DNA from: Tricholoma matsutake
Lineage: Eukaryota; Basidiomycota; Agaricomycetes; Agaricales; Tricholomataceae
NCBI GenBank assembly: GCA_026075535.2
Contig: AP026550.1
Coordinates: 6,758,001-6,822,000 of the forward strand
Length of the DNA stretch: 64,000 nucleotides
Direction: 5' to 3'
Below the pieces are notes generated by a model. It was not told the origin of the DNA, ran no database searches, and was given only the letters and a program-made list of their open reading frames with translations. A program made the translations under genes and the position numbers. Shown piece after piece: positions 22,007 to 64,000 of this stretch. Position 1 is the stretch's first letter; every line of letters starts with the position of its first letter.

Positions 22007-22300
22007 GCCACCCACCCCCAGCCTCATGAGCAACTGCTCGTGGGGTGGAACGTGGGTGGAACGACACCCAGATGCAGGGAAAGGAGACGACAACAATGCA
22101 CCACCTGCCCCCAGCCTCACGAGCAACTGCTCGTGGGGTGGATCGTGGGTGGAACAACAACAATGACAAGCCACCCACCCCCAGCCTCATGAGCAACTGC
22201 TCGTGGGGTGGATAGTGGGTGGAACGACACCTAGGCACAGGGATAGGAGATGACAGCGCACCACCCGCCCCCAGCCTCGTGAGCAACTGCTCGTGGGGTC
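22007..22300. repeat. GC-rich tandem repeat, four units
   Basis: The core GCCTCATGAGCAACTGCTCG followed by TGGGGTGG begins at 22021, 22114, 22184 and 22274 (spacings 93, 70 and 90 bp). Each core contains a small hairpin (GAGCA...TGCTC). Linkers between the units are also related to one another. Open frames through this array are compositional. Confidence 0.75.
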
Positions 22301-25971: not shown

Positions 25972-27225
25972 GTGAACGCGCTGCCCAAGATAGGCAGGTA
26001 CATACTGGACGATGCTTCCCAAAGCTCCACAGAGTCCCTACACACCGTTCCAGATAATCTTGCCTTTATTACGCTGCCATTTTTGCCAAATGCGCTCCCT
26101 AGCGACATGGACACATCAGAACGCTTTGATGTGCTTGAAAGCGACGTTTCCGGAATGTGTGCGCAAATCGACTCGCTTAAATCTACGATTGAAAACTTCG
26201 TTAGGACCCTCCAGGCTAACCCTACGACCAATAGTTCCCCCTTTACGACTCCAAGCGCACCCAACAACGATGTTTTGCCAAACACGTCCACTAAGGAACG
26301 TGCCCAGATCAAACCGTCCCCCCCCACCGAATTTGATGGTGCACGTGCGCAGGGACATGCATTCCTTAATTCCTGTGAGTTATACATTAGTCTCCAGTCG
26401 CATCAATTCGTCGATGAGGCTGCAAAAATTTATTGGGCCTTCACATACATGAAATCTGAATGCGCCTATCTCTGTGTGGACCATATCCTATGTCAAACTA
26501 AAGAACTCGGTTCTCTACCTTTCTCCACTTGGGGTGACTTTCGAGCTGAGTTCGTATGCCACTTTTGCCCCCTCAATGAATGCCACTGAGCAGTGACACA
26601 ACTTGAGTCATCCGCTTACCACCAGGGACGTCGATCCGTGGATGACTATATCAATGAGTTCAAGGATTTGGTGGACATGGCAGGATATGGGAGTGGGTTA
26701 CCAGTGGTGGTGAAGTTCTGACAGGGGCTCAACCGAGAAATTCAGGACCAGATTGCACAGATGTTGGAAGGGCGCCCAGCGGATGATGATATCCTTGCTT
26801 GGTATGAAGCTGCTTCACTCTGTGATGAGAACCGACTCACAAATGCAGCATTTAATGCTGCATTCCATGCTCCAACTACCACTCATATGCCCTACACCTT
26901 CAATCAAAGCCTCCCCCACCCTAACCCCATTCCTGTTCATCAAACTCCCACACCAGCCATCAATGTCCCAGTACCAATGGATGTTGATGCAGCCCACAGC
27001 TGTGCACGTAAGTTGAATCTCTGCTACCGTTGTGGGGAACCTGGACACAGGGCTGGAGCATGTCCCCATTGTCAGGATATCCACATGCTCACCCCCAAGG
27101 GACGAGACGAACTCCTGCAAGATTTGTTGGTGCTTGTAGATGTTGAGGAAGCGAAGGATCAAGTTGCAGAGGAGATTAAGTTGGAAGTTGTAGAGGAGCA
27201 GGATTTTCCTATTTGCAGCAAGTGA
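25972..27225 (+). pseudogene. Gypsy copy A gag, with nonsense codons
   Basis: One frame encodes a Gag of about 417 residues with a coiled-coil-like N-terminal part (SERFDVLESDVSGMCAQIDS), a retrotransposon Gag core, and a zinc knuckle CYRCGEPGHRAGAC near 27020. TGA codons at 26587 and 26719 interrupt it; both fit CGA to TGA. The frame closes at 27225. The pol frame overlaps from 27213 in another register, so Pol expression would need a frameshift, or this junction is itself a lesion. Confidence 0.85.
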
Positions 27226-30200
27226 ATTGTACACCCTCACTGCCTGTCCATAACTGCTTTGAAGTCTTGTCAGTTGAATCCCCGGAGAATGAATCCATTT
27301 CTGTGACTGCTCCCCTCTCTGACCCTTCGAAGTTGGCTAAAGACGTACCTGCTCTCCCCATCTCTCCTTCTACTCCACATCCCAAAATTAAATCATGGGA
27401 GCGTAAACTACCATGCAAGTATATTGTGGCATCCACTCCCTCTGCACATTCCTTAAACCTAGCCATCGAACTGCAGACGACCAACACTGGACAGATACTT
27501 GGTGTCTCTGCGCTCCTGGACTCTGGTGCGACTGGTCTCTTCATCGATTCCCATCTGGTACAACAACATCGCCTAAATACTCGCTCACTCTCACGTCCAA
27601 TACCTGTATATAATGTGGATGGATCCCCAAATGAAGCTGGTGCCATCCGAGAGGTTGCAGACCTGGTTCTCCATTACAAAGATCATAGTGAGCGTGCCCT
27701 TTTTGCTGTCACTCAATTAGGAAAGCAAAAGGTGATTTTGGGATATCCATGGCTTCGAGACCATAACCCAGAGGTCGACTGGCATACCGGGGAGGTTACC
27801 ATGAGCCGATGTCCATCCCGTTGTCAGATGTGTTTCACAGAAGCCAGGCAAGAACGTTGTGGACAGAAGGCGGCAATACAATGTACTCAGAAGTGTCATG
27901 CTGGACCCCTGCCTATACCTGAAGTGGAATTGGAAGGGGTTCCTGATCTAATGCCGGACTCGGATGATGATGATGAGGACCCAGAGGAAGTGGAGGAGGG
28001 TGATCGGATCTTCTACACTGCGATTCGCTCATCGCATGAGGTGTGTGCCATATCGAACATATCCCAACGCCTCGCCAAGGCCTTCCACAAAAACAGCACT
28101 GCTAAATCCTCTACTAACTCCTTACTCCCTCATCTCCATGAGTTTGAAGACGTGTTCTCCAAGGAGTCATTCGACTCTCTTCCTGCACGCAAGCCATGGG
28201 ATCACGCGATCGAACTCACCCCCGGCGCAACCCCTTCATCCTGCAAGGTCTATCCTCTCTCTCCGGAAGAACAATGGCAGCTTGACCAGTTCATCGACGA
28301 GCACCTAGCCTCTGGACGTATTTGACCATCGAAGTCACCCATGGCCTCTCCCTTTTTCTTTGTCAAGAAGAAGGATGGCTCACTTCAACCGGTTCAAGAC
28401 TACAGAAGGCTCAACAACATCACAGTCAAAAATTGCTACCCACTACCCCTCATCTCCAAACTCGTAAACCAGCTCCGTGGAGCCCGATACTTCACCAAGC
28501 TCGATTTCCATTGGGGCTATAATAATGTGAGGATAAAGGAGGGAGATGAGTGGAAGGCAGCCTTTCATACCAACCATGGTCTTTTTGAACTGCTTGTCAT
28601 GTTCTTTGGCCTTACTAATAGCCCTGCCACCTTTCAGACCATGATGAACGACATCTTCCATGACCTCATCCTTGAAGGTGTTGTCTGCATCTATCTCGAC
28701 GACATCCTCATCTTCACTCGCACGGTTGAAGAGCACTGTCGCATCACGTGCCTCATCCTAGAGCGACTTCGATGGTACAAACTCTACCTTCGTCAGGACA
28801 AATGCGAGTTCAAAAGGACCAAGATTGAGTACCTTGGCCTGATTATCTCGGAGGGTCAAGTGGAGATGGATCCTATCAAGGTAAACGGGGTCACAGCTTG
28901 GCCGACGCCCACGAACAAGAAGGAGGTGCAGTCTTTCCTGGGCTTCATCAATTTCTATCGGCATTTTATCAAGGATTTCTCACATCATGCACGACCACTG
29001 TTCGACTTGACAGGAAAGGAGGCATGGAGGTGGGATAATGCACAACAGGAGGCATTCGAAAAGCTTAAGGAGATGGTCACTTCTGCTCCAATCCTTACCT
29101 TTGCTGACGATTCGCGTCCTTTTCGTGTAGAAGCTGACAGTTCTGACTTTGCGATGGGTACCGTGTTGTCTCAGCAGTCTCCGGAGGACCAGAAGTGGCA
29201 TCCTGTTGTGTTCTACTCCAAAAGCCTTAGTGCTGTAGAGCAAAACTACGAGATCCATGACAAGGAGATGTTGGCAATAATGCATGCGCTTGAGGAGTGG
29301 CGACACTTCCTTGAGGGTGCCCAACACAAGGTGGAAATTTGGACGGATCACAAGAATCTTGAGTACTTCATGACAGCCAAGAAATTGAACCGTCGTCAAG
29401 CTCGTTGGTCCCTGTATCTATCTAGATTCGACTTCTCCTTGCACCACCATCCAGGTCGCAGCATGGGGAAGACCGATGCCCTATCCCGACATGCAGACCA
29501 TGGGGATGGCAGCGGTGACAACCAAAACATTGTGCTGTTGCAGCCAGACCTGTTCACCATTCGGGCACTGGAAGGCATCACACCCCAGGGTGAGGAGTGG
29601 GACATCCTACATGACATTTGTCACGCAAACTGTAGCGGTTTACATGAGGATGTTGTCGCCTGAGCTGTTAAAGAACTGAGGAAGGGATCAACCCTTTCCT
29701 TATGTGTGGCAGAGTGGGCTGAAAAGGAGGACTTGTTGTATTTCAGGGATCGCATCTATGTTCCCAATGACCCAGACCTTCGCCGGCGCATCATATCCCA
29801 ACACCATGACTCACAGATTGCTGGCCACCCCGGATGCTGGAAGACCTTGGAGCTCACCTCACGGAACTATTGGTGGCCACAAATGTCATGGCTCATTGGT
29901 CAGTATTGTCGCACTTGTGACCTTTGCTTACACACCAAGGTTCCTTGTCGCAAGCCTATTGGTGAGCTACACCCTCTTCCTGTTCCAGAGAGTCATTGGG
30001 ATGTTGTCAGCGTCGACTTTGTGGTGGAATTGCCAGAGTCAAATGGGTTTGATGCGGTGATGTGCACAGTTGACTCAGTGGGAAAATGCGCTCACTTCAT
30101 TCCCACTCACACCACTGTCAGTGCCCTAGGTGCCGCTCAACTCTACCTCCACCACGTGTGGAAATTACATGGACTTCCTGGTGCCTTCCTCTCGGATCGT

Positions 30201-31124
30201 GGCCCTCAGTTCATGGCAGAGTTCACTCGTGAGCTGTACCAACTCCTGGGGATCAAACTCCTTGCTTCAACCACTTATCACCCACAAACTGATGGCCAGA
30301 CGGAGCGAGTCAACCAGGAACTGGAGCAGTACATCCACCTCTTTGTCAATGAACGCCAGGACGATTGGGATGATCTCCTTCCTTTGGCCGAGTTCGGATA
30401 CAACAACCATGTCCATGCTTCCACTCAACAGACCCCTTTCCTCTTAGACACTGGACGACATCCACGCATGGGATTTGAACCTCGCCAAACTCCCTCACAC
30501 ATCGAGATGGTGAATGAGTTCACAGAACGCATGAGGGATAGCTTGGAGGAGGCAAGAGCAGCCTTAGCAAAGGCGAAGGACGACATGGCGCAATTTTACA
30601 ACCAATGCCACTCCCCAACCCCTCAGTACAAGGTTGGTGATTGAGTTTATCTTGACTCCAGTGATGTCTCCACTACACGTCCATCCAAGAAACTTGCTCA
30701 TCGCTTCTTGGGACCTTTCCCCATTGTCAAGTGCATTGGAACGCATGCCTATTGTCTATGCCTCCCAGCCTCCATGTCCAGACTCCATCCCATCTTCCAT
30801 GTCGTCAAATTGCTTCCAGCTCCCCCAGATCCATTCCCAGGATGCCATTCACACCCACCACCACCACCTACAGTGATCGAGGGAGAACCCCAATACGAAG
30901 TCGAGTCAATCTTGGACAGCCATTTGCGTCGAGGAAAACTCCAGTATTTGGTACATTGGAAGGGTTATGGGTATGAGGAGAACTCATGGGTCAAAGAGTC
31001 TGATGTAAATGCCCCTCAGTTAATCAAGGAATTCCACCAACGGCACACTGCTGCACCGCGTCGCATTCAAGTCACGGACTTTGGTTGTATGCGATTTCGA
31101 ATGCATCGGGGCGATGCATCTTAG
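27213..31124 (+). pseudogene. Gypsy copy A pol with C-terminal chromodomain
   Basis: A single frame holds in order: aspartic protease (LLDSGATGLFIDS, near 27515), reverse transcriptase (CIYLDDILIF, near 28690), RNase H, the integrase zinc finger region (HHDSQIAGHPG ... CRTCDLCLHTK), the integrase core (SVDFVVELP, LSDRGPQF, HPQTDGQTERVNQ) and a chromodomain (YEVESILDSHLRRGKLQYLVHWKGYGYEENSW, here abbreviated by its ends). The chromodomain suggests targeting to methylated-histone chromatin. Three TGA codons interrupt it at 28323, 29661 and 30642. All fit CGA to TGA, and copy D retains Arg (CGA) at the third. Confidence 0.9.
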
Positions 31125-33694: not shown

Positions 33695-36600
33695 TCATTC
33701 AGTAGCAAAACATACTTTAGGCAGTGCCTTCACCCATCCCTTTTGATTTCTCTCGATGTGGTACCTGAGGCATTGCATGAGTGTCTTGTTCATTCTTTCT
33801 GAAGCACCATCCATTTCAGGATGATATGATGTCGACAGTTTATGTTTAATTCCAGTGAGTCGCATCAATGCCTTCCAAAATTTTGAAACAAATATCTTGT
33901 CATGGTCACTTATGATTTCTGTTGGGCAACTGTTTTCACAGTACCAGGTGTTGAAAAAAATGTTTGTGAACTCTTCCACTGACATCGTTGTTGTGCAAGG
34001 TGCTATCTGGATGTCTGCTCCCAAGTGGTCTGTCATTGTGATGATCACATCGTATCCATCATCTGTAGGCAAGGGACCAATGAAGTCAATTGTGACAGAC
34101 TCGAAACACTTATCTGGCACAGGTAGCAGATGTAGGGGGCCTGGTCTCTTGGTCATGGATCCTTTGTTCTTTTGGCATTCTACACATCTGGGTATGTATG
34201 CGTTGATGAGATCTCTTCACATATTCAGCCAGTAAAAATCTTCTTTCAATGCTCCATAGGTTTTGTCTCCTCCGAAATGGCCAAGGTGGTCATGTGTGAG
34301 TCTGTATAGTTGCTTTCACAGATTATGGTACTTAGGAATCACTAGTCTTGTTCCAATGAACAATAATCCATTTTTCAGCTTGATGTCTAGCTTGATGTTG
34401 ATTACTCCTCGTCTGAGATCATCTAAGATTCCAGAGCACCAGCTATCCCTCTTGTACCCTTTGTGCAGACAGGAGAACAGTTTTGGATTGGTATCAATTT
34501 GGAAGATTGGATTTATGTGTGTTGACTCTGGCGCTTCTGGCATGTGTGATAAGGCATGTGCCACTGTGTTATCTTCTCCTTTAATGTAAGTGATATTGTA
34601 TTCATACTGTGACAAATATTCCATCCAGCAGACTTGGCATAAGGACAGGTCACGTTGCCCATCGAAATTTTGCAGGGTTTTATGATCCATGTAGATTCGA
34701 ATTTGGGAGCCAAGAAGGTCAACTCTCCATTTCGTGAGGGCACGCATAATGCTCAGTAATTCCTGTTCATGTACAGGGTAGTATAGCTCTGCACTTTTCA
34801 GTTGTCTACTCTCGAAGGCTACTGGATGAGCTGTTTCCCAGGTTTCCCTGAAGGACAGCACCACTCCTGTACAGCACTTGCTTGCATTGCACATCATGTA
34901 AATGTTGTTCTTTCCTGGGTTGTGGTGTTTGATGGTTGTCAGGCAGTCTGAGCTTAGTACCAAACCCTTGATTGCCTCGAAGGCATGTTGATGTTCAGCA
35001 GTCCATAGTGGGAAGCTTTGGTTACACTCCTTTTTGGTTAAGGGAGTCAGCACCGTTGTGTGCTCGGCAAGCATGGGCAAGAAGTTGCTGATGTATCAAA
35101 CTAGGCCCAAGAATTGCTGCACTTGTTTTGCTGATTCTGGAGCTTTCCAGTTCAGTATGCACTCGACCTTTGAACTGTCTGCTTCAATTCCTCTTTCTGA
35201 GATGCAGTGTCCCAGGAAATCTATTTCCATTGTGAACAATTAGGGCAAGGCAGGGGTTACCCCTGGGTGTCAAATCTCATACCCTTACCCCTACCCCTGA
35301 ACACCCTACCCTTAGGGGTAAGGGTATGGAAACATATAAGGGTTGCCAAGGGTATGGGAGGGTTTGTCAAGGGTACAAGGGTTTGGCACAAAATCAACAT
35401 ATTTAGAGCAAAATTCATTTGAAAAGTGTTGATAACTGGTATTTACTATTAATATCACATATTAATACCTCTTATTAACATATGAAAGCCATTATCATGT
35501 TGGACAATCCCAAAATCTGAATTTAATTGATGAAAATCTTGGATATGAGTCTTTGTAGCTGAAAAAATCAAATGATATTCTTACATAAGCATACCCCTGG
35601 CATACCCCTGTACCCTTAGTAAGGGTACAGGGGTATGCAAGGGTATGAACTTCCAAACCCCTACCCTTACCCCTCATACCCTTAGCCCAAAAACACAAGG
35701 GTATACCCCTACCCCTGCCTTGCCTTATGAACAATGTTGACTTTTTCACTGAGCAGTACAGGTGAGCATCCCGCAATACTTGAAGAATTGATGCCACATT
35801 TATTTGGTGTTCCACAAGTGAGTTAGACCAGATGATTATATTATCAAGATAGACATGACAAATCTTTCCTATAGTGCTGCCAGCACTAATGTGACCCATC
35901 GTTGGTGCATTGCTGGTGAATTCTGCAATCCCATTGGCATTACGACCCATTCCCACAGGCCGAAGGGGCTAAGGTTGCTGTGCATTCAATGTGGTCCAGA
36001 TGCACTAAGGTTTGGAAGAACAAGTTTGTCATGTCTATTTTCCCCCATACTCTTCCTTTAGCACAATCTGCCAATATGTCATCTATTTGTGGCAGTGGGT
36101 AAGTGTCTGGAACAGTTACTTTATTCAGTTTTTGATAATCGTTAACCCATCGCAGGAGTGCTGTCAGATCAGGTTTTGGAATGATGAAAGATGGTGATGT
36201 GTATGGTGATGAGGATGGCCTAATCCATCTGGCTTTGAAGTGTTGTTCAATCAGTGTCTTCCACCCATCTCGGTATTTCCTTGGACATGAATATGCCTGT
36301 CCCACTGAGATTGGCAACCCCAGTTTGATCTCGATATGGTGATAGATGTCTGACGGGAGTTTAGTAGCATGTGGAATGTCTGTTGGGAAATGGTCTGCAT
36401 ATTTGGCCTTAAATTTACCATCTAGCGTCTGTAAAATTTGTACTGATGCCAGTTCTTTAATTTGTGTTTTGATAGCCCCGATTACACATGGTGGCCCCAT
36501 TGTGTACAAGTCCATGTTGAATCAATATGGGTTCTTGTCAAATAAACATTGCAGTTTGGCAAGGGTGTTTTTATGTAGCATTCACATCTTAGTGTTTTCA

Positions 36601-38116
36601 TCTTTTTCGGTTTGTTGTTTTGTAGCCCGGTGTTGATATGGGGTCTGTTGGATTGGTCATGGTTTCTCTGGTGGAGGGTTCAGCAGATCAAACCCAATTT
36701 CCTTAGCAATGGCAGTTCTCAGTTCTGCATCCACTATGATCCTGTTCTTTGATAGAAAGTCTAACCCAAGGATTAAATTGGTATGCAGGTTAGGGCAAAT
36801 GATCATGTTTAAACTTCTTGATTTCCATACAGCATCTGTTGACTGAAGGTGTAATTTACAATATTCTGTTAAGTCCATGCTAGTGTCTGTGTTTCCTCCC
36901 TGGTGTTCAAAAGCTTCCATAACCAAGAAAGACTTGTACAGTTTCCTTCATGCTAATCCCACAATCTCAATGAGACTAGAGGAAATCAGCACTGTGGGTG
37001 AACCATGGTCAATAAGTGCTCAAATTGGCATTGGGGCACACGTGAGAGGTGCATCAATGCAGCACTCCCACCAAAGGTGTGATGGCAGTGAAAAAAGCTG
37101 AGGTATGTACTCAGTAGCTTCATCCTCTGCCATTTCGAAACTGCTGCTACTGCCAAGGTAGTTCCTTCTGCTTTTTTGTATGTAGCTTTTGCTTTCAATG
37201 CTTCAGTGATTGTGACCTTCTTGCATGCATCCAGTGTAGGATGGCCATTCTTTCCTAATGGACAGTCTGCAGAACAGTGATCGACATAGAACTGTTTGCA
37301 ATGAAAACATCCATGGTGAGCTTTCAATAAATTGTGTTTGACTGTGGTAAGCTTAGCAATAAAAGCCATCGCATTGTTGGAAGTTGACACTGGGTTTGTA
37401 ACCACCTCTTTGCTTCTGTTGTTGTTGTTATTCCCAGCTCCTGAACATTGGTTCCCCATCTTTGGGGCTGCAGTAACTTTCATAGCTTTAACCCATTCAT
37501 TTTGCTTATTGTTCAGTTCAACATCTAAAAGGTGTACTCATTCAATCCATGCATCAAAATCTGCGATCTTGTCCAAATCTCTGTGCATGTTATTTGCATC
37601 ATAAGACATTTTGAGTCCTGGGCAGAGTCATGGAATGAAGTGAGCTCACAGTTTCCCTTCTTTGATATGGTATGGAGAACTAGCTATGCTGAGCTCTGCA
37701 TTGGCCTCTCACATTGCCTCCGTCCATGGTAAGAAGTTGAGCAGTCCTTGCATTGCGATCTGCATTGCAATGAGGTCATCCTGCCAATTGCATGGTAAGA
37801 ATTTCTTCTTAAATTTGAGTATAAAGTTTGGAAAGGTCAAGGTCAGGAGATGATCATGATGTATATTTACCCAAGACTGGACTGCCAAGGATTCAAAGTT
37901 GTAGATGATAGCCACGAAATGGTCAGCCACTTCAACCTTCTTGTGTTGAAAGAAACATTGACAGGCATTTTTGAACATGTGGACTGTGGCAATTGCAATA
38001 CGTTCTGTGGTCAGGACTGGAGCATGGCCACCCTTTCCACCTTCAACAGTCATGGGGACATACTGACTGTTTTCCATTTTTCTAGGGTTGTATGCGCACC
38101 TGATACAGCTAGTACC
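33695..38116 (-). pseudogene. Gypsy 2 gag-pol remnant
   Basis: Transcription order on the minus strand: gag core (about 38077-37709, then 37483-36986 with a degenerate Cys/His knuckle CFHCKQFYVDHCSADC); protease (DHGSPTVL near 37000, then LILGLDFLSKN near 36760); RT (36515-35740, with YLDN in place of YLDD); RNase H (35080-34316); and the integrase core (34156-33695: DFIGPLP, SDHDKIF, HPEMDGASERMNK). Multiple stops and frameshifts break it, and a MITE lies inside RT at 35241-35727. The protein sequence differs strongly from Gypsy copies A, C and D, so this is a second family. The N-terminal gag piece is displaced to 45746-45993 by a palindromic insertion. Confidence 0.85.
35241..35727. mobile_element. 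hAT-type MITE inside Gypsy 2 RT
   Basis: A 487-bp element with terminal inverted repeats TAGGGCAAGGCAGGGGT / TAAGGCAAGGCAGGGGT, flanked by a perfect 8-bp duplication TGAACAAT (35233-35240 and 35728-35735). Removing the element and one duplicate restores the RT reading frame (KKSTLFTMEIDFLGHCIS). Eight-base duplications with TAGGG termini are typical of hAT elements. The interior is rich in GGGTA motifs and has no coding capacity. Confidence 0.88.
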
Positions 38117-38409
38117 ATGTATGATATATAGTCAATTGACACTTAATACCTATGCATCACAGCTATCAAATTACTGTCCTGCCTAAAATAGAAGATATTT
38201 CCCACTCCCCACATCAGCAAGGATCTCGGGCTCTTACCTACAATCTGCCATCACCACTTGTCATCTAATTATACCTTCTCATCAATGTCCACATACCCCC
38301 CGCTCACTGTTGCCCCACCATCATCCTGACATGCACAATACATACAAACAATGCACCAAACAGGCAACCATGCAATAATTCAGTCCTCCAGGTGGCCACA
38401 ATACATATC

Positions 38410-38683
38410 TGTTGGAGCAGACTATATACACTGCACAGTGGAAGAGACAACACATTCCTTACAACCTACCTGGGGTTTACTTAGACTTACAGCTAGGGTT
38501 AGCAGAGGTAAGAACACTGTATTCCTACTACAGTACAGGTTCTCCTTATATACATAATAATAAGGACGTCACATGACTCAGGAATGTGTTTACCGCATGT
38601 ATGCGCAGTAAGCGCAGTAACATGCGTATGCTGCATGTATTGCCTCATGTATACAGCATGCATCACTGGGATTAATTTCAACA
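38410..38683 (-). repeat. 3' LTR of Copia 2
   Basis: A 274-bp LTR. Compared by eye with the 5' LTR, all differences fall at five CpG positions. Confidence 0.96.
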
Positions 38684-38715
38684 CCCCCCCTCAAACTGTA
38701 CAGCGCTCTAAGCAG

Positions 38716-41700
38716 CTAAGTTTGAATCTCGAAAGTAATTCCGAGAGAGTCTCTAAATTTCCTGAATAGGACGGCGCCAAGGTTCTTTGTGAACATGTCA
38801 GCCGGATTATCACTTCCAGGAATGAAAACGACTGTGACTTTGTCATTTTCTATGCATTCGCAGGTGTAGTGGTAGCGAATGTCTATATGTTTTGTCCTTC
38901 TTTCCTGAACTGGATTTGATCCAATAAAGATGGATCCCTGATTATCAGCGCAGATTGGTACGCGCTTCAGTGTATATCCAAGTTCCTGGAATAAGGACTC
39001 TATCCACACTATCTGCCGACAAGTGTCAGAGAGAGCCATATATTCGGCTTCTGTGGATGACAGTGCTACAGTTTTTTGTAAACGGGACTGCCAGCACACA
39101 ATGCCACTCGCCAGAGTAGCAAAGTAACCTGTTGTAGATCGGCACTTGACAGTGTCAGCTGCCCAATCAGAATCTGTGAAGGCCTGCAGCCCCTCGGATT
39201 TCTCTCCATCATAGACTATACTGTACTTCTGGGTTCCCACCAGATAGCGCATTATGTACATTGCTTTGTCTAGATGTTCTTGGCTAGGATTAGCCGAGAA
39301 TTGCGACATCTTGATTACCGCGTAAGCGATATCAGGTCGCGTTCCGAGCATCAGATACAATAAAGATCCGATCACAGACTGATATTTCGATCTAAGCGCC
39401 GCATTTGGCGTCGCTGTGTTCTCTGACGGTTTGTAGCCAGTCGGGAGCGGAGTGGGGGCAATTTTGGCATTTGTCATCTCGAACCTCTCGAGCACTTTGG
39501 CGAGATATTCTGTTTGATCGAGTTTGACTTTTGTAGCGGTCTGGGTGACGCGCATGCCTAAGAATTCCGTGACTTTTTCAGTACTACGGCACTCCCAATG
39601 CTTCAGGCAAGCATTCTTCTTTTCATCCACAAGTTTCTTGTTCTTGCCCATGAACAAGCCATCGTCAACATAGACTAGCGCAATAATGATGCTGCCTGTC
39701 TTAGGATCCTTGTGTATGAAGATGCCGGCATCGGAGCTGGCGCGCACAAACCCAATGGTGCGCATAAATGCCTCTAGCTCTTTCCACCATGCTAGTGAAG
39801 CCTGTTTAAGGCCATACAATGCTCGGCGTAAGCGCATTACTTTGCGCTCTTTACCCTCAAGTCTGAAACCCTCGGGTTGATCCATATAGATCTCCTCATC
39901 AAGTTTGCCATATAAAAATGCGGTTTTTACATCTAGACCGGTCATATACATGCCTTCTAGAGACGCAAGGGCAAACATGAGGCGTACGGTCTCGTAGCGG
40001 ACTACTGGTGAGAAAATCTCATCAAAGTCAACGCCTTCGACTTGTGAAAAGCCTTTGGCCACGAGTCTGGCTTGTTTTCTTCCGTCTGATTTCACGGAGA
40101 AAACCCATCTATTTTTGATCGTTTTCTGATCATGTGGAAGATCGACGATATCATAGACTTGTCGCTTGCGAAGAGCCTCTAACTCTTCACGACAAGCCTG
40201 TTTCCACTCAAGTTGCTGCTGCTGGGGTAGGCGCGCAATATTGCGAAATTGGTTTGGAACTAGGCTTTTTCCGCTTGATGGTGTGACTGCTTTTGATAAC
40301 AGCCAGCGGATAAGCTCATCTCCACCTTCCTTGGTTATCTTTTTAATATAACCTGCTTCGTCCGGTTCCCCCATTGGGTAATCATGTTCTTGATTATTGG
40401 AATCGGGCACACTCTCGTGGGGTGCCGAACTCAGTCCAGCAACCGGTTCTTGCTGTTGAGGTCGTGGTCGTGTTCGGTTATGATCCGAATCTTGACCCAC
40501 AGACTTCTTCCAATATCGATCACGCACAATGTCTCTCTCTATGTCAGAGGGGAGTCGCTGTTCTCCATAGGTATTGCCGGGACGGTTTGGGATTTTCCTC
40601 TGCCTGCCTGATCGACGGGGCAATTGCTGCCATTCCTGTTGATCTTCACATCTTGGACGAAAGTCCTCAGTGTTAACTGGAGGTGGCGGAGGAGGAGCGT
40701 TAGTCGCATCGTCATGCGCCTTTTGCTCACTTGGTAAATCATCATCATCATCTTCTGATGATGGAGGAAGGGGCAGATTTTGTGGCGGTATAGGGTCATC
40801 GCCACCCGTTCCAGATGAGTGGTTGTCATCTTCTGGTTCTGGAGGTGGAAAATCACCAAGGTCTGTCTTGGCAGGAGTTTTAGCTCCGGGACAGCATGGG
40901 AACATCGTTTCATCAAATAGTGCTGTGGCACCAATGAATATTGCACCATTTTGTCGCATGAAACAATATGCTTTAATGCCATCTTCTACTCCAAGGTACG
41001 TCATTAACTCCAATCAAGGAGATAATGTTGTTGGACGTTTTTCCTTTGGTAGATAGACATAAGCACCGCAACCGAAGACCTTCAGATTGTTTAGATCTGG
41101 GCGGACCTTTGTCAGGTCCTCAAAAGGTGTCAGCCATTTCAGGCGCCTTATTGGGGTTCGGTTGTATAAATGTGTTGCATGTTCTATGCAAAATTCCCAC
41201 CATGATTGTGGTAGACAAGTGGTGAATCGCAAGGTTTGCGACTTTTCCATTATTGTCCTTATGGCGCGCTCTGCGCGCCCATTCTGTTGATGAACGTGGG
41301 GTGCAGACATCTCTATTTTGATGCCTAAGTCCTTGAGCTGTTTTTGTAGCTCACGATCCTTGAACTCCCCCCCTGGATTGACACGCCAGTGCTTGATTGT
41401 AGCGCCATATTGGGTTTTAGCCATCGCTTGAAATTGTCTAATCACTGCAGCAGCGTCAGATTTCTTTCTGAGACATTGGACCCAAATATGTGACGTTTTG
41501 TCATCCAGAAATACAATGAAGTATTTATGTTTGTGGTACGATAGTACCGGGAGTTCCTTTAGGTTGGAATGTATAAATTCAAAGGATTTGTCAGCTCGTG
41601 AGTCTGACTCGGGAAAAGATTTTGAGGTCATTTTCCCTTCTGCACACCCTGGACATATAATTTTGTCTTTAGGAATAATTAAATTCCTTGGGAATTTTAT

Positions 41701-43602
41701 GGTGCTTTTAGGCATTTTCTCTAGCGCCTCTTTGGATGGGTGTCCAAGTCGCCTATGCCAAGTCAAGTAGTCAGCGACATAAATGGTCGCAACATTAACC
41801 TTTTTGGTGCTCAATATATGAGTCCGAGCCCAATAGATCGTGTCATTCCTCCTTAGAGGGACACAATGCATGATTGGGTTTCCATGCTCGATAAATGAAA
41901 TGTGTGCAGAGGAACCACACACATCACTTCCGTCTTGTAAAAAGACCCCCATTGACATCAATCGAGTATTAATGTCGGGTATGTAGTAGACGGGGTATAA
42001 CCGCGTTTCATGTGTCTCTGACTTCCCATGACATACTACCTGGTGTTTAATGAAGACTGCTCCTTTTCCTACTATATGAGTAGTACCAGTGGCCGTTTGG
42101 ACCAAGGTAGAGTCCTTTCTCGGTAAAGGCTCGTAAGAAGCAAAATCTTTTATTTCACCAGTGAAGTGTTTTGATGCGCCTGAATCCATGATCCAGTCGG
42201 CACCTTTCTTACAATCTCCCTTTGCACACATAGCACATATATTAAGATCTAAATAATTCCATGATACATTTAATAGCAGTAAAATTTCACATGAAAAGTT
42301 CGCTGTATTCATAGGAATATTAATCTTAGTGCTTGTGGCAGGGAAAAGGACTGACCTGTCATCATATGCCCCTGTATCAAGGGGTTCATCGATGGCTTTC
42401 CACACTTCCTCATCAGACACCGGAGGTTCAGATCCGAGGGAGATGGTATCGTCTTCCACCTCCTCGATCCTAGACTCGGGTTCTGGTTCTATCCTTCTTC
42501 TCTTTCCTTCTCGCACCGTCAGGTGCTCTTCCAGCGGTCGCAGATTTTTCGCACTGCGCAGAAGTTGCATTTGCTCGAGGGTGTCTCGAGCTTGCTGATA
42601 TTTGGCATAAACCGAACGAGAGGTAGAGGCCGCGCCTGTATATGCCTGTGCAGGCGGTCGGCGGCGAGGATCCCTTGTGGGAGTGTGTTTGCGTCTTTCG
42701 ATGCGCTGTATAAGCGGCATCGGCAGTATGATGGTGCCATTACCATTTATGGTGGTATAGGCTTTGGAGGCAAGGTGGGTATGTTTATCCTTCGGCTTCT
42801 CCTCCTTAGTCTTTCTGTCCCCACGTCGTCCACACTTTCAGGACGAGTCTCCATTGCTGTTTTGCCCTTCTTTGGGCTGCCATTTGGGGTTTCCCCCTTT
42901 GCACTTAACAGCAGAAAGTTTGTTGGCCTGAGGCTGGCCAGCGGGCTTTCCTACTGCTGTGCGCCTTGAGGCTTCAGCGACAATGGAGTCCTTGACATGT
43001 TTAAATGTCAAGGTGCTAGTAGCGGTCGTGTTAAGGACCGTTGCGGACAAGGAATCGTACTCACGCGGCATCGCAGCAAGTAGAATCATTGCTTGCACTA
43101 GCTCGGGGATGGCGACGTTAGCAGCCGTAAGGCGCTCAAATCTGTCTGCCATTCTAGCAATCTCCGGTGCGGGGTTCGCAGCCGGGATCTTGATCGCTAT
43201 TGCGGACCTAAAGTCCGCGAAGACTTGGGAGGGGCCGTCCACACCATAATCGGTGTGGATGAGATCCCACACCTCCTCAGCAGTGTCCTTTGAGTTGGCA
43301 CGCTGCCGAATGGAGGGGGCCAGGTGGAGCACTAGGCTACCAATGGCCTGGTCATTTTTGTTGCTCCAGGTCTGGAGCTTGGCATTAGCATCCGCTACCA
43401 AAGTAGCGTTTGTCGCCGTCAAGGGAGGCGCCGGGGGTGGTTTTTGCTCCGCCCTGCTAGTTATTTGCCAGAGGCCCTGAGACCTGAGCCACGCCTTCAT
43501 TGAGTCGGCCCATTGAATGTAATTTGATCTGTCAAAAGTTTGAACGAGTTTCTCAAGAGTTGAAGACATGATTTTGTGGTGGCAGCTGTTAAAAGCGCTC
43601 AA
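38716..43602 (-). pseudogene. Copia 2 gag-pol polyprotein, two nonsense codons
   Basis: A single frame of 1,629 codons contains, from the N-terminus: Gag (43602-42841, opening at MSSTLEKLVQTFDRSNYIQW); protease (WIMDSGASKHFTG, near 42180); GAG-pre-integrase (WHRRLGHPSKEALEKMP); integrase core (FIVFLDDKTSHIW, then HWRVNPGGEF, then QQNGRAERAIRT); reverse transcriptase (ALVYVDDGLFMG, near 39670); and RNase H (SSTEAEYMALSD ... CADNQGS ... TKHIDIRYHY). The only interruptions are TGA at 42838-42840 and 41014-41016, both consistent with CGA to TGA. The second integrase carboxylate is Asn (VNPGGEF) where Asp is expected; GTCGAT to GTCAAT would again be a CpG change. It is therefore almost intact but inactivated by very few changes. 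Confidence 0.93.
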
Positions 43603-47662: not shown

Positions 47663-50600
47663 TCACTTGACAAATAAAGGTGAATTACACACAAATCGAT
47701 TGGTAAGTGCAATGTTCAGAATAGTACACTGGAGACCCTCTTGGTCAGCCTCTAAGGTACTCTTTTTGATATGTAGCTTCCTGACAGCCTCCTTGATAGC
47801 AACCCAGTTGGAGGACAACCAAAATTCAGTGTATTTCTTGGCTAGCATCTCAGGTGAGTGACTGAATGAATATTCAGCCAAGATAGCCATAGCTGTATGA
47901 GAATTGAATAATAAATGATGCAAGGAATTTCTGAAAGATTATACCAAGGAAAAATTGGGTGATTGAGTGGAAGATATTAGAATCATGTATCTGGATTACA
48001 TGGTTAGGAATAAAGAATGAAATTGAGAGGTCATTACAGGCTGACCATCTCCATAAGTGCAGACTTTTGTTCTTTTGAGAAACTAGCAACAAATTTGTAA
48101 AGCTAAAAAGGCTGAGTAAATGAATAGTAAGCAAGGAATCAAGTTCAAAAATTGATCAAGTGTTACAAACCAGAAAAAACATGCATTGAATAAATAGATG
48201 AGCAAGTGCAAGAGGTGATATTGATCAAATCAAGAGGCTTACAGCCTACAAGAGCAATCTTAAATCAATTTACTCAGAAGTAGAATAGTTGAAAGTTACA
48301 TGCTATAATCACAAAGCAAAACACCATTAAGTATGAGAAAATGGTATGCCATATTTTAAATAGACATTCAACTTACCTCCTGTGATGGCAAAAGCAAAGA
48401 ATATGAGAAAGTGATGTGCCGTGTTCAAACAGACATGCAACTTACCCCCTGTGATTGCAAAAGAAAAGAGCATGGAATATGAGAAAGTGATTTGTCATGT
48501 TCAAACAGACATGCAACTTACCATCTGTGATTGCAAAAGAAAAGAGCATGGAATATGAGAAAGTGATGTGCCATGTTCAAACAGACATGCAACTTACCAA
48601 CTTTGATTGCAAAAGAAAAGAGCATGGAATATGAGAAAGTGATGTGCCATGTTCAAACAGACATGCAACTTACCCGTTGTGATTGCAAAAGAAAAGAGCA
48701 TGGAATATGAGAAAGTGATGTGCCATGTTCAAACAGACATGCAACTTACCCCCTGTGATTGCAAAAGAAAAGAGCATGGAATATGAGAAAGTGATCTGTC
48801 ATGTTCAAACAGACATGCAACTTACTGACTGTGATTGCAAAAGAAAAGAGCATGGAATATGAGAAAGTGATGTGCCATGTTCAAACAGACATGCAACTTA
48901 CCCCCTGTGATTGCAAAAGAAAAGAGCATGGAATATGAGAAAGTGATGTGCCATGTTCAAAAAGACATGCAACTTACCCCCTGTGATTGCAAAAGAAAAG
49001 AGCATGGAATATGAGAAAGTGATGTGCCATGTTCAAACAGACATGCAACTTACCCCCTGTGATTGCAAAAGAAAAGAGCATGGAATATGAGAAAGTGATG
49101 TGCCATGTTCAAACAGACATGCAATTTACCCACTGTGATTGCAAAAGAAAAGAGCATGGAATATGAGAAAGTGATGTGCCATGTTTAAATGGACTTGCAA
49201 CTTGCCTCCTGCATTTGGGCAAATAATATAAGCTATGAGAGATTTTCATCAGGGAAAGAACTTACTAGCTAGTATTTCAATGGTGTATTTAGCATTAAAA
49301 AGAAATTCACTCCAATTCTCACATATGCCTTACCTCCTAGTATAGTGAACAACAGATAAATTCTGATATAGCAGTATAATCCAATAAAAAGCTTACAGTC
49401 TACCAAGGGAACATATAAGTGTTGTGCACTATAAACTAGACCAAAGTAAACTGCCTACCTCCTATAACAATTCTAGTTTGTTATATATATTAACAGATAA
49501 AGTAATACTCTATACATTTAGAATGAATTATTAGTATTTTGTGGCATAAATTCAACCCATTCTTACCACATTCATTGGAAACCAATCACATAAACTTCTA
49601 ACCCATGAAACCCAGTCTTGCAGAATTGCAGCAGAAGAAAATATTTGTTTCAACTTGAAGGTTGCTGCTGCACTTAACATCTTCATTAGATTAGCTCTAC
49701 ATTTTTATTCAGCTCAGTATCACAATTAGAAGACCTGGATTCATACTGCACAGCATACTGAAAGGAAAGCTCTATTTGATTTCTTTGTGTTGACACAAAA
49801 AGAGCCTGCAGAGCCTTCTTATCAAGCACAGCTGCTGTCTTCTCAACAAGTTCAATGCAATTGCCCTCAGGCAAATTCATATCTGTTGTCAATATATTTC
49901 ACCCTCATTAATTAGGACACTATTAAAGCCATACCTCGAAGAATTATGTAAGTCTTTGGAGGATAACGGCATGTGAAAATGGGAAGACTCATGCAAGTCT
50001 TCTGAAAATCCTCCATAGCTCGGCTTTGAGCTTGGTTTACTGCTTCATTAGGTGAAATTCCTTCATTTGTCAGAGCTTCATATGCATCATCATCATGAGC
50101 ATCAAACTTGGTGAATATCACAATGACTGGCACTATATTAATTGCATATGAGATATTCCAGTATATATCACTGTGCAAAATATTTTGTTACCTTTCCCAG
50201 TTCCAACCTTGGAGAAGAAATCTTCCTCTGCCTTGGTAACAGGCCTTGAACTATCCATTGGAATGCAGTACCTGATCAGAGAAAGAAAGACCTCATGTTA
50301 AATCACCAAGGTATCAACCACTATGTACTAACCATATAGCATGAATTTGGTCCCGCAATTTCCTCTGCTTTGCCTGCTGCTTGATGAAATTCTTTACATC
50401 AACCAACTCATTTGCACTGCCCGCTTCGAATCCACGTGAGTCATGGAAGACAAAGCCTGGGTTACTTCGAAAAACCATTTCATTCTCAAGATTATGGAGG
50501 CCTCGCTGGAAGGGTGGAATTGATACTTATCAGCCAGAATACTAGAGCCAGGCTAAACTGACCCGGGCAGATGGTTCGACACTATCCAAGTTGATCTGAT

Positions 50601-50828
50601 TGAAAGTGTCATGATACGTTAAAGAATTAGACATTCACAACGCACTTTATTTCCCTTGCTATCGTGAATTTCAGGTTGATCGGTGGTCCTGCAAATCTTC
50701 TGTAGAATCGTTGTCTTGCCCGAGTTGGCTCTTCCGATGATTAGAATTCGGAAGCGAACAGCTTTCTCGCGAAGTTTCTGGTAGGCCCGCTCCTCATCAG
50801 GATTGACACTTGAGGTGGGGTTCGACAT
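47663..50828 (-). CDS. P-loop GTPase-like protein with a chain of 3-nt microexons
   Basis: Seven ordinary exons (50828-50646, 50595-50563, 50505-50333, 50271-50192, 50132-49935, 49882-49747, 49696-49567) give 311 codons in frame. The Walker A/G1 motif GRANSGKT is at residues 32-39, G3 DSRG at 94-97 and a G4-like TKFD at 164-167, as in small or dynamin-like GTPases. A Trp-rich segment (QDWVSWVRSLCDWFP) ends exon 7. Eighteen putative 3-nt exons follow, each preceded by AG (one lost) and followed by GT or GC. Then come a 65-nt exon (48102-48038) and a final exon (47930-47663) encoding a helical C-terminus (MAILAEYSFSHSPEML ... LQCTILNIALTNRF). All phases agree, giving 439 residues. An alternative last splice at GTGTGT near 47690 is possible. 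GTP binding is inferred from the motifs; the cellular role is unknown. Confidence 0.75.
48440..49205 (-). repeat. 76-bp intron-plus-codon minisatellite
   Basis: Splice donors (ACTTAC on the plus strand) begin at 48440, 48516, 48592, 48668, 48744, 48820, 48896, 48972, 49048, 49124 and 49200, an exact 76-bp period. On the minus strand each unit is GTAAGTTGCATG...TTTGCAATCACAG (73 nt) plus a triplet. In transcript order the triplets within the array are TGG, GGG, GGG, GGG, TCA, GGG, CGG, TTG, ATG and GGG. Diverged relatives of the unit with the same AG-triplet-GT layout extend on both sides (48243 to 49461). Confidence 0.92.
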
Positions 50829-59543: not shown

Positions 59544-61041
59544 TAGAAAATGAAGAATAGGAGGAAATGAAGTGAGGAAAAATATAGGACAAACATAAAA
59601 AATAGGAGAAACACACAAGGCACCCCCTAGTCCCCTTTCATCACCCCCTCTCTAAGATGCATTGCCCCAATGCATCTGGAATCACATACGAGCAAAAGTC
59701 AGTGACTTGAATGTGACATGGTGCAGTAGTGTGCCATCAGTGGAATTCCTTGACTAACCGAGGGGCATTCACATCGGACTTCTCAACCCATGAGTTCTCC
59801 TCATACCCATAACCCTTCCAGTGCACCAAATACTGGAGTTTTCCTTGATGCAACCAGCTGTCCAAGATCAACTGAGCTTCATACTGGGGTTCTCCCTCAA
59901 TCACTGTAGGCAGCAGTGGTGGATGTGAATGGCATCCTGGGAATAGATCTGGGGAAGCTGGAAGGAGTTTGATGACATGGAAGACCAGGTGGAGTCTGGA
60001 CATGGAGGCTGGGAGGTGCAGACAGTAGGCATGCATTCCCACACACTTGACAATGGGGAAAGGTCCCAGGAAGCAATGGGCAAGTTTCTTGGATGGACGT
60101 GTGGTGGAGATGCCACTGGAGTCAAGATAAAGTTGATCACCAATCTTGTACTGAGGAGCCAGAAAATGGTGTTGATTGTGAAAGCGTGCCATGTCATTCT
60201 TTGCCTTTGCCTCCTCCAAGCTATCCCTCATGTGTTCTGTGAACTCATTCACTGTCTCAATGTGTGAGGGAGTTTGGTGAGGTTCAAATCCCATGCATGG
60301 ATGCTGTCCAGTGTCTAAGAGGAAAGGGGTCTGTTGAGTGGAAGCATGGATATGGTTGTTGTATCCAAACTCAGCCAAGGGGAGAAGATCATCCCAATTG
60401 TCCTGGTGCTCATTGATGCAGATGCAGATGTACTGCTCCAGTTCCTGGTTGACTCACTCAGTCTGGCCATCAGTTTGCAGGTGATAGGCAGTTGAAGCAA
60501 GGAGTTTGATCCCCAGAAGTTGGTACAGCTCACAAGTGAACTCTGCCACAAACTGAGGGCCATGGTCAGAAAGGAAAGCACCAGGAAGTCCATGTAATTT
60601 CCACACATAGTGGAGATAGAGTCAGGTGGCACCCAGGGCGCTGATAGCAGTGTGACTGGGAATGAAGTGAGCATGTTTCCCCGCTGAATCAACTGTGCAC
60701 ATCACCACATCAAACCCATTCGACTCTGGCAACTCCACCACAAAGTCAACACTGACAACATCCCAACAACTCTCTGGAACAGGAAGTGGGTGTAGCTCAC
60801 CAATGGGTTTGTGATGAGGAATCTTGGTGCATAAGCAAAGGTCACAAGTACAACAATACTGACCAATGAGCTGTGACATTTGTGGCCACCAATAATTCTG
60901 TGAGGTGAGCTCCAAGGTCTTCCACCATCCAGGATGACTGGCAATCTGTGAGTCATGGTGTTGGGATATGATGCACTGGCAAAGGTCTGGGTCATTGGGG
61001 ACATAGATGTGATGCCTGAAATACAACAAGTCCTCCCTTTC
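59544..61041 (-). mobile_element. Gypsy copy C, 3' part only
   Basis: Minus-strand fragment of the copy A family: a 97-bp remnant of the 3' LTR (59544-59640), then integrase and chromodomain coding sequence (61029 to about 59737). It is cut at 61041 by the LTR of copy D, and its own 3' LTR is truncated at the neighbouring MITE border. TGA codons near 60457 and 60619 fit CGA decay when compared with copies A and D. Confidence 0.88.
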
Positions 61042-61467
61042 TATAAGGGCACCCTAAGCCTCTAGCAAAGGGAAATCTGAAGTTAAAATTATGCTACATA
61101 ATACAGGGATTGGGGGTGCACCTAGCAAAGGGAAATCCGAAGAGAAAACTCTAAGGATCCCCTTGCTGATGCCCAGTATATGTGAAGACGACAAAAATCA
61201 AATATAACCTAAAAATAGAAAAAGGCGGAGATAGGCGGATCAAGGCTGCCGAATGACATCATACCAAGGGGTATGTGTCGGAAGGGGTACTCCGCCTCTA
61301 AATATAAAAGTGTCAACATATACAAACATGATAGCAAGGGAAAATTAGTAATAAAATCTGGAAAAATCATAGAAAATGAAGAATAGAAGGAAATGAGGTG
61401 GGGAAAAATATGGGACGAACATAAAAAATAGGAAAAACACACAGGGCACCCCCCTAGTCCCCTTACA
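61042..61467 (-). repeat. 3' LTR of Gypsy copy D
   Basis: Inverted match to the 426-bp LTRs at 25515 and 31136, with the purine tract next to it (CACCCCCTCTCT on the plus strand). Confidence 0.94.
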
Positions 61468-61502
61468 TCACCCCCTCTCTAAGATGCATCGCCCCGATGC
61501 AT

Positions 61503-64000
61503 TCAAAATCGTATACGACCAAAGTCCGTGACTTGAATGCGACGCGGTGCAGCAGTGTGCCGTCGGTGGAATTCCTTGATTAACCGAGGGGCATTTACGT
61601 CAGACTCTTCGACCCATGAGTTCTCCTCATACCCATAACCCTTCCAATGTACCAAATACTGGAGTTTTCCTCGACGCAAACAGCTGTCCAAGATTGACTC
61701 GACTTCATATTGGGGTTCTCCCTCGATCACTGTAGGTGGTGGTGGTGGGTGTGAATGGCGTCCCGGGAAGGGATCTGGGGGAGCTGGAAGCAATTTGACG
61801 ACATGGAAGACGGGATGGAGTCTGGACATGGAGGCTGGGAGGCGTAGACGATAGGCATGTGTTCCAATGCACTTGACAATGGGGAAAGGTCCCAAGAAGC
61901 GATGAGCAAGTTTCTTGGATGGACGTGTAGTGGAGATGTCACTGGAGTCAAGATAAACTCGATCACCAACCTTGTACTGAGGAGTTGGGGAGTGGTGCTG
62001 GTTGTAAAATTGCGCCATGTCGTCCTTCGCCTTTGCTAAGGCTGCCCTTGCCTCCTCCAAGCTATCCCTCATGCGTTCTGTGAACTCATTCACTGTCTCG
62101 ATGTGTGAGGGAGTTTGGCGAGGTTCAAATCCCATGTGTGGATGTCGTCCAGTGTCTAAGAGGAAAGGGGTCTGTTGAGTGGAAGCATGGACATGGTTGT
62201 TGTACCCAAACTCGGCCAAAGGAAGGAGATCATCCCAATCGTCCTGGCGTTCATTGACAAAGAGGCAGATGTACTGCTCCAGTTCCTGGTTGACTCGCTC
62301 CATCTGGCCATCAGTTTGTGGGTGATAAGCAGTTGAAGCGAGGAGTTTGATCCCCAGGAGTCGGTACAGCTCACGAGTGAACTCTGCCATGAACTGAGGG
62401 CCACGATCCGAGAGGAAGGCACCAGGAAGTCCATGTAATTTCCACACGTGGTGGAGGTAGAGTCAAGCGGCACCTAGGGCACTGACAGTGGTGTGAGTGG
62501 GAATGAAGTGAGCGCGTTTTCCCACTGAGTCAACTGTGCACATCACTGCATCAAACCCGTTTGACTCTGGCAATTCCACCACAAAGTCGACGCTGACAAC
62601 ATCCCAACGACTCTCTGGAACAGGAAGAGGGTGTAGCTCACCAATAGGCTTGCGACAAGGGACCTTGGTGCGTAAGCAAAGGTCACAAGTGCGACAATAC
62701 TGACCAATGAGCCGTGACATTTGTGGCCACCAATAGTTCCGTGAGGTGAGCTCCAAGGTCTTCCAGCGTCCGGGGTGGCCAGCAATCTGTGAGTCATGGT
62801 GTTGGGATATGATGCGCCGGCGAAGGTCTGGGTCATTGGGAACATAGATGCGATCCCTGAAATACAACAAGTCCTCCTTTTCAGCCCACTCTGCCGCACG
62901 TAAGGAAAGGGTCGATCCCTTTCTCAGTTCTTTAACAGCTCAGGCGACAACATCCTCATGTAAACCGCTATGGTTTGCGCGACGAATGTCACGTAGAATG
63001 TCCTGCTCCTCGCCCTGGGGTACGATGCCTTCCAGTGCCCGAATGGTGAACAGGTCTGGCTGCAACAGCACAATGTTTTGGTTGTCACCGCTGCCATCCC
63101 CATGGTCTGCACGTCGGGATAGGGCATCGGTCTTCCCCATGCTGCGACCCGGACGGTGGTGCAAGGAGAAGTCGAATCTAGATAGATACAGGGACCAACG
63201 AGCTTGACGACGGTTCAATTTCTTGGCCGTCATGAATTACTCGAGGTTCTTGTGATCCATCCAAATTTCCACCTTGTGTTGGGCACCCTCGAGGAAGTGT
63301 CGCCACTCCTCAAGCGCACGCATTATCGCCAACATCTCCTTGTCATGGATCTCGTAGTTTCTCTCTACAGCACTAAGGCTTTTGGAGTAGAATGCAACAG
63401 GATGCCACTTCTGGTCCTCCGGAGACTGCTGAGACAACACAGCGCCCGTCGCAAAGTCAGAACTGTCGGCTTCTACATGAAAAGGACGCGAATCGTCAGC
63501 AAAGGTAAGGATTGGAGCAGAAGTGACCATCTCCTTAAGCTTTTTGAACGCCTCCTGTTGTGCATTATCCCACCTCCATGCCTCCTTTCCTGTCAAGTCA
63601 AACAGCGGTCGTGCATGATGTGAGAAATCCTTGATAAAACGCCGATAAAAATTGATGAAGCCCAGGAAAGACTGCACCTCCTTCTTGTTCGTGGGCGTCG
63701 GCCAAGCTGTGACCCCGTTTACCTTGATAGGATCCATCTCCACTTGACCCTCCGAGATAATCAGGCCGAGGTACTCGATCTTGGTCCTTTTGAACTCGCA
63801 TTTGTCCTGACGAAGGTAGAGTTTGTACCATCGAAGTTGCTCTAGGACGAGGCGCGTGATGCGACGGTGCTCTTCAACCGTGCGAGTGAAGATGAGGATG
63901 TCGTCGAGATAGATGCAGACAACGCCTTCGAGGATGAGGTCATGGAAGATGTCGTTCATCATGGTCTGAAAGGTGGCAGGGCTATTAGTAAGGCCAAAGA
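61503..64000 (-). pseudogene. Gypsy copy D pol (partial at window end)
   Basis: From the window end towards 61503: RT palm (CIYLDDILIF near 63920), RNase H, integrase (HHDSQIAGHPG, SVDFVVELP, LSDRGPQF) and chromodomain, ending FGRIRF. Interruptions are TAA at 63237, TGA at 62940 (shared with copy A) and TGA at 62463. Where copy A has TGA at 30642, this copy keeps CGA (VGDRVYLDSS), direct evidence for the ancestral codon. Confidence 0.9.

Follow-up and report, generated by a model that had tools for sequence, protein, structure and literature searches.

Arrays of putative single-codon exons between repeated introns in a GTPase gene family of Tricholoma matsutake

The micro-exon genes (MEGs) of schistosomes and tapeworms contain consecutive micro-exons with lengths divisible by three. 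In the available sections of the work describing them, exon skipping varies the MEG protein by as little as one residue, and MEGs are missed by gene finders and by RNA-seq mapping (PMC7653826). Micro-exons in smaller numbers are known from other animals. The micro-Ex8 of Drosophila homothorax is a 3-nt exon that splices into mRNA, as is predicted here, but it is one conserved exon, alternatively spliced from a larger one, in the text of that report accessible to us (PMC7392893). As far as the accessible text goes, human RPS24 has three micro-exons in a row, and only three (PMC11162997, PMC12686416).

The window analysed here is a stretch of 64,000 nucleotides of Tricholoma matsutake chromosome 13 (C13:6758001-6822000), from a genome of 13 contigs and 161,040,721 bases. 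It carries, on the minus strand, an agaricomycete GTPase gene with a tail interrupted by 18 in-frame 3-nt units, one of which has lost its acceptor AG. The initial annotation had offered both schistosome micro-exon genes and stwintrons as parallels for this chain. A stwintron is an intron nested inside another one, interrupting its splice site. Since every unit of the array has its own donor and acceptor and the introns are serial, the stwintron reading was rejected; flatworm MEGs are the closer parallel. The assembly, TMA_r1.1, is described as telomere-to-telomere in the part of its report available to us (PMC10211490).

The gene model, homologs, and close paralogs placed seven upstream coding exons at 49567..50828 on the minus strand (50828-50646, 50595-50563, 50505-50333, 50271-50192, 50132-49935, 49882-49747, and 49696-49567). 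Summing to 933 nt, these exons encode the GTPase domain with the P-loop GRANSGKT and end at WFPMNV in phase 0. The exon 6/7 junction, for which there are two candidate donors, is the least certain of the gene model. The first intron (49566-49462, 105 nt) is followed by the triplets, which span 49461 to 48243, and the last intron (48242-48103, 140 nt) by two downstream coding exons at 48102-48038 (65 nt) and 47930-47663 (268 nt with the stop). The downstream exons form the C-terminal helical part, which by eye resembles the C-termini of the family (AMAILAEYSF vs LVIVFEHSF). The initial annotation had given the coordinates of the chain, the lengths of its introns (about 54-74 nt, with 105 nt for the first and 140 nt for the last), the same exon sizes on either side, and phase 0 at both ends of the chain, and all of them held.

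Paralog comparison distinguished five conserved 5' single-codon exons, GAG ACT GAG CTA GAG (49206..49461, minus strand; 49461-49459, 49399-49397, 49336-49334, 49268-49266, and 49208-49206), and three conserved 3' ones, GAG CAT GCT (48243..48379, minus strand; 48379-48377, 48302-48300, and 48245-48243). A 76-bp tandem array, consisting of a 73-nt intron plus 3 nt, was called by Tandem Repeats Finder at 48399..49211 on the same strand with 10.7 copies; its codons in the window gene are TGG GGG GGG GGG TCA GGG (CGG) TTG ATG GGG. The single GC donor of the chain lies at 49205. As first annotated, 18 triplets are present with one lost AG: 17 of the 18 acceptors are intact, and the CGG unit (48674..48676, minus strand) is preceded by CACAA, in which AA replaces AG. 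Splicing probably skips this unit and keeps the frame. A broken site in any unit would cause no frameshift, since all units are 3 nt long and lie in phase 0, and because any pairing of donor and acceptor preserves the frame, skipping should be harmless.

The spliced model with 17 codons, as predicted from the sequence, is stop-free and has 438 residues. The window protein qualifies as a P-loop GTPase (MMR_HSR1/Era-like): the P-loop pattern GxxxxGK[ST] is present, and PF01926, with a gathering score of 21.9, was matched at 20.9 bits and an E value of 4e-4. Of 40 aligned relatives, 39 matched PF01926 at E values up to 0.01. Within the window, no Rfam family was found at gathering thresholds, and no tRNA. 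Much of the window surrounding the gene is occupied by ORFs that resemble, by eye, Copia- and Gypsy-type retroelements (15111-19623, 25972-30644, 34316-43602, and 59737-63962). This setting counts against the reading proposed below: among 702 T. matsutake genes surrounded by transposons, 83.2% were not transcribed, according to the accessible part of an earlier study (PMC6980582). At 22090-22229 the window also has two tandem copies of a 70-bp unit that holds an inverted CACGAGCA/TGCTCGTG motif.

Arrays across the GTPase family

The initial annotation presented the chain as a property of one gene. It is present in that gene but is not peculiar to it, being family-wide and hypervariable. Among 19 GTPase loci taken from the T. 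matsutake genome, a count that leaves out the GTPase places C8:9147498, C8:2016398, C11:5392001, C12:1691823, C4:3721516, and C4:3296466, arrays were found in 16, with chains of 8 to 39 units. The DNA search found the window array at five other genome places as well, and protein searches gave seven close paralogs including the window gene. Ten distant paralogs, with 41-59% identity in the exon that matched best, all carry chains of 3-nt units as well, on other intron repeats. Four intron repeats were distinguished: A, of 73 nt, in the window gene and L009-L013; B, of 58 nt, in L054-L058; C, of 68 nt, in L059 and L060; and D, of 65-67 nt, in L051-L053. Within the chains, 336 of 350 introns measure 50-92 nt, and those in the array middle are near-identical. 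The unit counts include a first D-chain unit that is probably misparsed; in the L010 chain, the units GTT and CAT are probably misparsed as well, and the mid-intron-motif reading gives GGG.

The remaining three loci lack a full array. In L050 (C11:3577000-3586000, minus strand), the first four units are followed by sequence that is retroelement-like by eye, and searching did not recover a C-terminal exon. The family-B-like L061 (C8:9139400-9143400) has no units, being cut by a Ty3/gypsy-like coding sequence before the array position, and no chain was found in L062, a remote GTPase. Among the seven close paralogs, four appear to be damaged (L011, L012, L013, and L050). L011 and L012 have a common in-frame TGA in GTPase exon 5, with intact array splice sites; either both inherited this stop from one ancestor, or it passed between them when a damaged copy was converted. 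In L013 the P-loop is altered.

The ends of the chains are conserved. The family A start, GAG ACT GAG CTA GAG, occurs in the six array-bearing close paralogs, with CAG as the fifth codon in L010, and the same six end on GAG CAT GCT, with GCC as the last codon in L013. Family B starts with GAT TGG (AGA, AGT, or AAT) GAT GAT in the four full-chain members, L058 being degenerate here. Family C starts with GAA TAT, and family D with GAT TAT if its first unit, which is likely spurious, is disregarded. Every chain of families B and D closes with TTT, as does that of L060. By eye, the introns between end units are not mutual copies, and the five 5' introns of the window gene likewise differ from one another. 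Recent duplication is therefore an unlikely source of the conserved end codons.

The middle of the chains is variable. The upstream exons of the close paralogs differ by 2-8% synonymous divergence, and their linkers differ. Synonymous divergence in the upstream exons is 5-8%, with omega 0.24-0.33, among the window gene, L009, and L010, and the middle codons of these three differ widely. Across the close paralogs, omega exceeded 1 in 4 of 21 upstream pairs and in 5 of 15 C-terminal pairs. The longest common codon subsequence of L051 and L053 is 16 (of 25 and 18 units, respectively), and these two arrays look like products of unit gains and losses.

Coding units and tandem duplication

For the tests separating coding units from MINISATELLITE, the units were located by the mid-intron motif, blind to splice sites. 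As counted over 16 arrays, the arrangement of AG, 3 nt, and GT or GC was kept at 261 of 263 unit boundaries. The splice dinucleotides deviated at 2 of 1052 positions, compared with 685 of 13,655 in the rest of the intron, ten positions beside the splice sites being left out of the latter count (odds ratio 0.036, p 7e-20). Not one of the 261 triplets was a stop, as against an expected mean of 17.3 and a minimum of 7 in 2000 permutations in which bases were shuffled within position within each array. The full chains likewise contained no stop in 366 triplets once the +4 register was dropped. That register (NNAG/TRA/GT beside triplets ending in A) had produced the many TAA and TGA of a first stop count, which was discarded.

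In all 13 arrays that had seven or more aligned units (L012, L013, and L053 dropped from the 16), every other 3-base window varied less than the junction triplet, by a narrow margin in L051 and L052. The per-position heterozygosity of the triplet was mostly 0.3-0.8, compared with intron means of 0.02-0.17, and the third position was lower in some arrays. The contrast was weak in L013, where 22 of 73 intron columns reached or exceeded the triplet mean. When exon lengths of 1-12 were compared, length 3 alone gave the longest chain in 7 of the 10 distant paralogs. Length 7 tied with length 3 in L054 and L055 and gave 9 units vs 8 in L058; length 8 also gave long chains, more weakly than 7. The chains of lengths 7 and 8 were read as the same units in another register (NNN+gtaa/gt) and were rejected as separate candidates.

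Two other counts were set aside. In an earlier one, the splice deviation was 10 of 436 vs 145 of 6272, i.e., no difference; the method had lost units, and most of its splice deviations came from family D, which was misregistered between 65- and 67-nt introns. The other, in which 119 of 120 units were intact with 0 stops, pointed in the same direction as the final tests, and its search method had also lost units. As a window-wide control, both strands of the rest of the window (59 kb) were searched. The longest chain there was 5 units, including TAA, with introns up to 175 nt, and 3 units with introns up to 110 nt, and a chance origin of the chain was rejected on this ground.

Part of the regularity is plain duplication, since Tandem Repeats Finder calls the 76-bp repeat. 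The antisense strand of L057 served as a control. It carries a chain of 18 units in which the triplet is TCA in 18 of 18, so duplication alone can make chains. As judged from these sequence comparisons, duplication cannot give triplet variability, the absence of stops, protected splice sites, and recurrence on different intron repeats. Since the units are mutual duplicates, the permutation and Fisher p-values are optimistic, and agreement across four different intron repeats is the sounder argument.

The relation of the triplets to their introns was also examined. Where the same residue recurred in one array, the codon was the same in 372 unit pairs vs different in 28. The triplet was linked to downstream intron variants at p < 0.05 in 7 of the 12 arrays tested (of 16). 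This weak tie between triplet and intron fits frequent recombination and falls short of proof. If recombination reshuffles a small, old codon set under selection, both the recurrence of the same codon and the weak tracking of the intron are expected.

Linkers in relatives and the proposed mechanism

Among the matches listed, 206 proteins were genome-derived, and 48 of these reach the W[FY]P motif after residue 200. Forty-one of the 48 end within 70 residues after the motif, and 7 run on. The T. matsutake model L208DRAFT_1357071 (P0001) ends before the array. Models stopping soon after the WFP motif are likely an annotation artefact if micro-exons are unmodelled. In that case many mushroom gene models of this GTPase family would be cut short at the array, and through such truncation a hypervariable protein region may have escaped annotation.

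The matches listed also include 19 ORFs from unassembled-source collections (18 jgi and 1 lgn), of which 4 stop before the motif, 9 stop within 33 residues past it, and 6 run on for more than 90. We took the jgi contigs, for which the source type is unstated, to be spliced transcripts because the ORFs cross several intron positions. The intron-free ORFs P0007, P0008, P0093, P0104, and P0151 have erratic low-complexity linkers of 30-66 residues soon after a WFP-like motif; in P0066, the sixth long ORF, a linker of low complexity is not clearly present, and the linker position of the Mycena model P0189 holds a short, ordinary-looking spacer. With hand-chosen boundaries, the linker entropy was below that of every non-overlapping window in three of the five proteins and ranked among the lowest 3.4% for the remaining two. 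The linkers of the relatives presumably come from 3-nt exons. When the C-terminus of P0007 was used as a protein query, three matches were obtained, including P0007 itself. The AlphaFold2 model of P0007 had a pLDDT of 82 and a pTM of 0.81, and linker residues 309-326, with pLDDT < 50, lay after the GTPase domain and ahead of the C-terminal helices.

Another relative, P0121, is 79% identical to family B and reads WFPHSW VQWNYSEDVA, then VSSCLVIKSVCSALTATST. The latter matches the family-B array intron translated in frame 0, at 18 of 19 residues for L056 and 17 of 19 for the other four B members, the best match in other loci and strands being 8 of 19. Moreover, the W and N of P0121 coincide with units 2 and 3 (TGG and AAT) of L056 and L057. 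We read P0121 as a transcript in which the upstream introns and about nine or ten single-codon junctions appear to have been spliced and one array intron, in which the ORF ends, retained. The claim of the initial annotation that each unit adds exactly one residue gains support from the sequence tests on the 16 arrays and from these transcript-like ORFs.

Two observations concern the N-terminal side. Just upstream of the GTPase start of L057 (L057:1500-1590) lie short near-perfect tandem repeats, PDTEVEE when translated, and the N-terminus of P0121 has a diverged repeat resembling this type.

The array architecture, the protection of splice sites, the lack of stops, the hypervariability of codons, and the recurrence on four repeats are features of the genomic sequence itself, and transcript-like ORFs with such linkers in relatives lend support. 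We consider it probable that splicing includes the single-codon exons, that they are translated into a hypervariable linker, and that recombination between near-identical introns shuffles them; for the window gene itself, we infer both the splicing and the recombination route. In this reading, single-codon exons in series would encode the linker that joins the GTPase domain to the C-terminal helices. The short phase-0 introns would be removed singly by the spliceosome via intron definition, and one residue would be added per unit. The near-identical introns would serve as homology tracts flanking every codon. Unequal crossing-over or conversion inside these introns could then lead to single codons being gained, lost, and reshuffled, and to the introns being homogenised. 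Selection would keep the codons diverse, exclude stops, and protect the splice sites. The outcome would be a hypervariable linker that differs between close paralogs, with chains of 8 to 39 units. Such a mechanism suggests a use for near-identical repeated introns, namely single-codon shuffling in evolution without frameshifts, and, if true, raises the question of how the spliceosome handles 3-nt exons between serial introns.

Three other explanations were weighed. The codons may be exonic and owe their diversity to a dedicated mutator or to codon exchange at the triplet, either RIP-like or by template copying. Non-identical triplets differ at 61-79% of sites, compared with about 1-18% for the introns (12 of 16 arrays), which speaks for such a process, as do the weak tie of triplet identity to intron variants and the preference for one codon per residue. 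However, the codon repertoire is small and fixed, which points to copied old units rather than to new mutation, and L051 and L053 have the appearance of unit gain and loss; we therefore regard a mutator as unlikely. Alternatively, the units may be recursive-splicing ratchet points in an over-long intron, the 3-nt exons being mostly skipped or later removed, so that the codons would matter little. Fungal introns are usually short, and the narrow length range of the chain introns suits such ratcheting, but it gives no reason for zero stops or for a hypervariable, restricted codon set, and P0121 seems to hold its nine or ten residues before the retained array intron. We consider recursive splicing very unlikely. 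Finally, a minisatellite within one long intron (49566-48103), with a duplicated chance motif and a mature mRNA free of the triplets, would draw on a tandem duplication that is real and on the chaining of duplicated chance motifs displayed by the L057 antisense strand, but is most unlikely because in sense the triplet is unique in its variability, free of stops, and bordered by protected dinucleotides, the four repeats, though different, behave alike across 16 paralogs, the end 3-nt exons of family A are conserved, and linkers occur in the ORFs of relatives.

Returning to the reading of spliced and shuffled single-codon exons, mushroom-forming fungi might possess a diversification system in which the repeated element is the intron instead of the exon, near-identical introns serving as handles for recombination and splicing, with a linker that is possibly isoform-rich at one-residue resolution; this extension is put forward tentatively. 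Since the linker is hypervariable and the family is large, a function in nonself recognition or immune-like signalling can also be imagined, and we hold it to be a possibility somewhat short of an even chance.

Comparison with known systems

Among the open-licence PMC papers listed, we found no description of arrays of 3-nt exons or of runs of one-codon exons between repeated introns, and no paper treating T. matsutake together with microexons. If confirmed by RNA, the arrays would be the most extreme micro-exon architecture known to us, with up to 39 consecutive one-codon exons. We know of neither repeated introns nor hypervariability for the RPS24 micro-exons.

At the level of fold, the top Foldseek matches of the P0007 model over the longest stretch were mostly immunity-related GTPases, or IRGs (Irga6, Irgb6, and Irgb10), together with GM4951, which we take to be an IRG; septins tie with them on Z. 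The alignment covers the GTPase domain and some of the helical domain. The identity is about 10%, and the rmsd is near 9-11 A over long alignments, so that we do not assign the family to the IRGs.

The WD, ANK, and TPR repeats of the Podospora nwd genes and other fungal NLRs resemble the arrays in consisting of near-identical repeats that vary in number, and concerted evolution with diversifying selection on few codons is a further likeness, so far as the accessible text of the source describes them (PMC4986451). In fungal NLRs, the repeat itself codes for about 33-43 residues, whereas in T. matsutake the repeats are introns and one codon per unit is coding; moreover, NLR repeat variation was shown between strains, in the same part of that source, whereas the variation described here is between paralogs of one genome (PMC4986451). 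If the proposed function is true, the recognition linker would be comparable in logic to repeat-based immune receptors, at one-residue resolution.

The predicted model of the window gene has 26 exons, including 17 usable 3-nt exons in one run and one exon of 33 nt, and would be classed as a micro-exon gene under the computational rule given in the available sections of the MEG work (PMC7653826). No flatworm was present among the 120 listed of 985 protein matches, which form a match list and not an analysis of descent. Like MEGs as described in those sections, the T. matsutake genes have predicted runs of consecutive micro-exons divisible by three (PMC7653826). Unlike in MEGs, the exons of the T. 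matsutake runs are all exactly 3 nt, in up to 39 units, the mid-array introns are near-identical tandem repeats, the codons are hypervariable between paralogs, and the genes encode GTPases.
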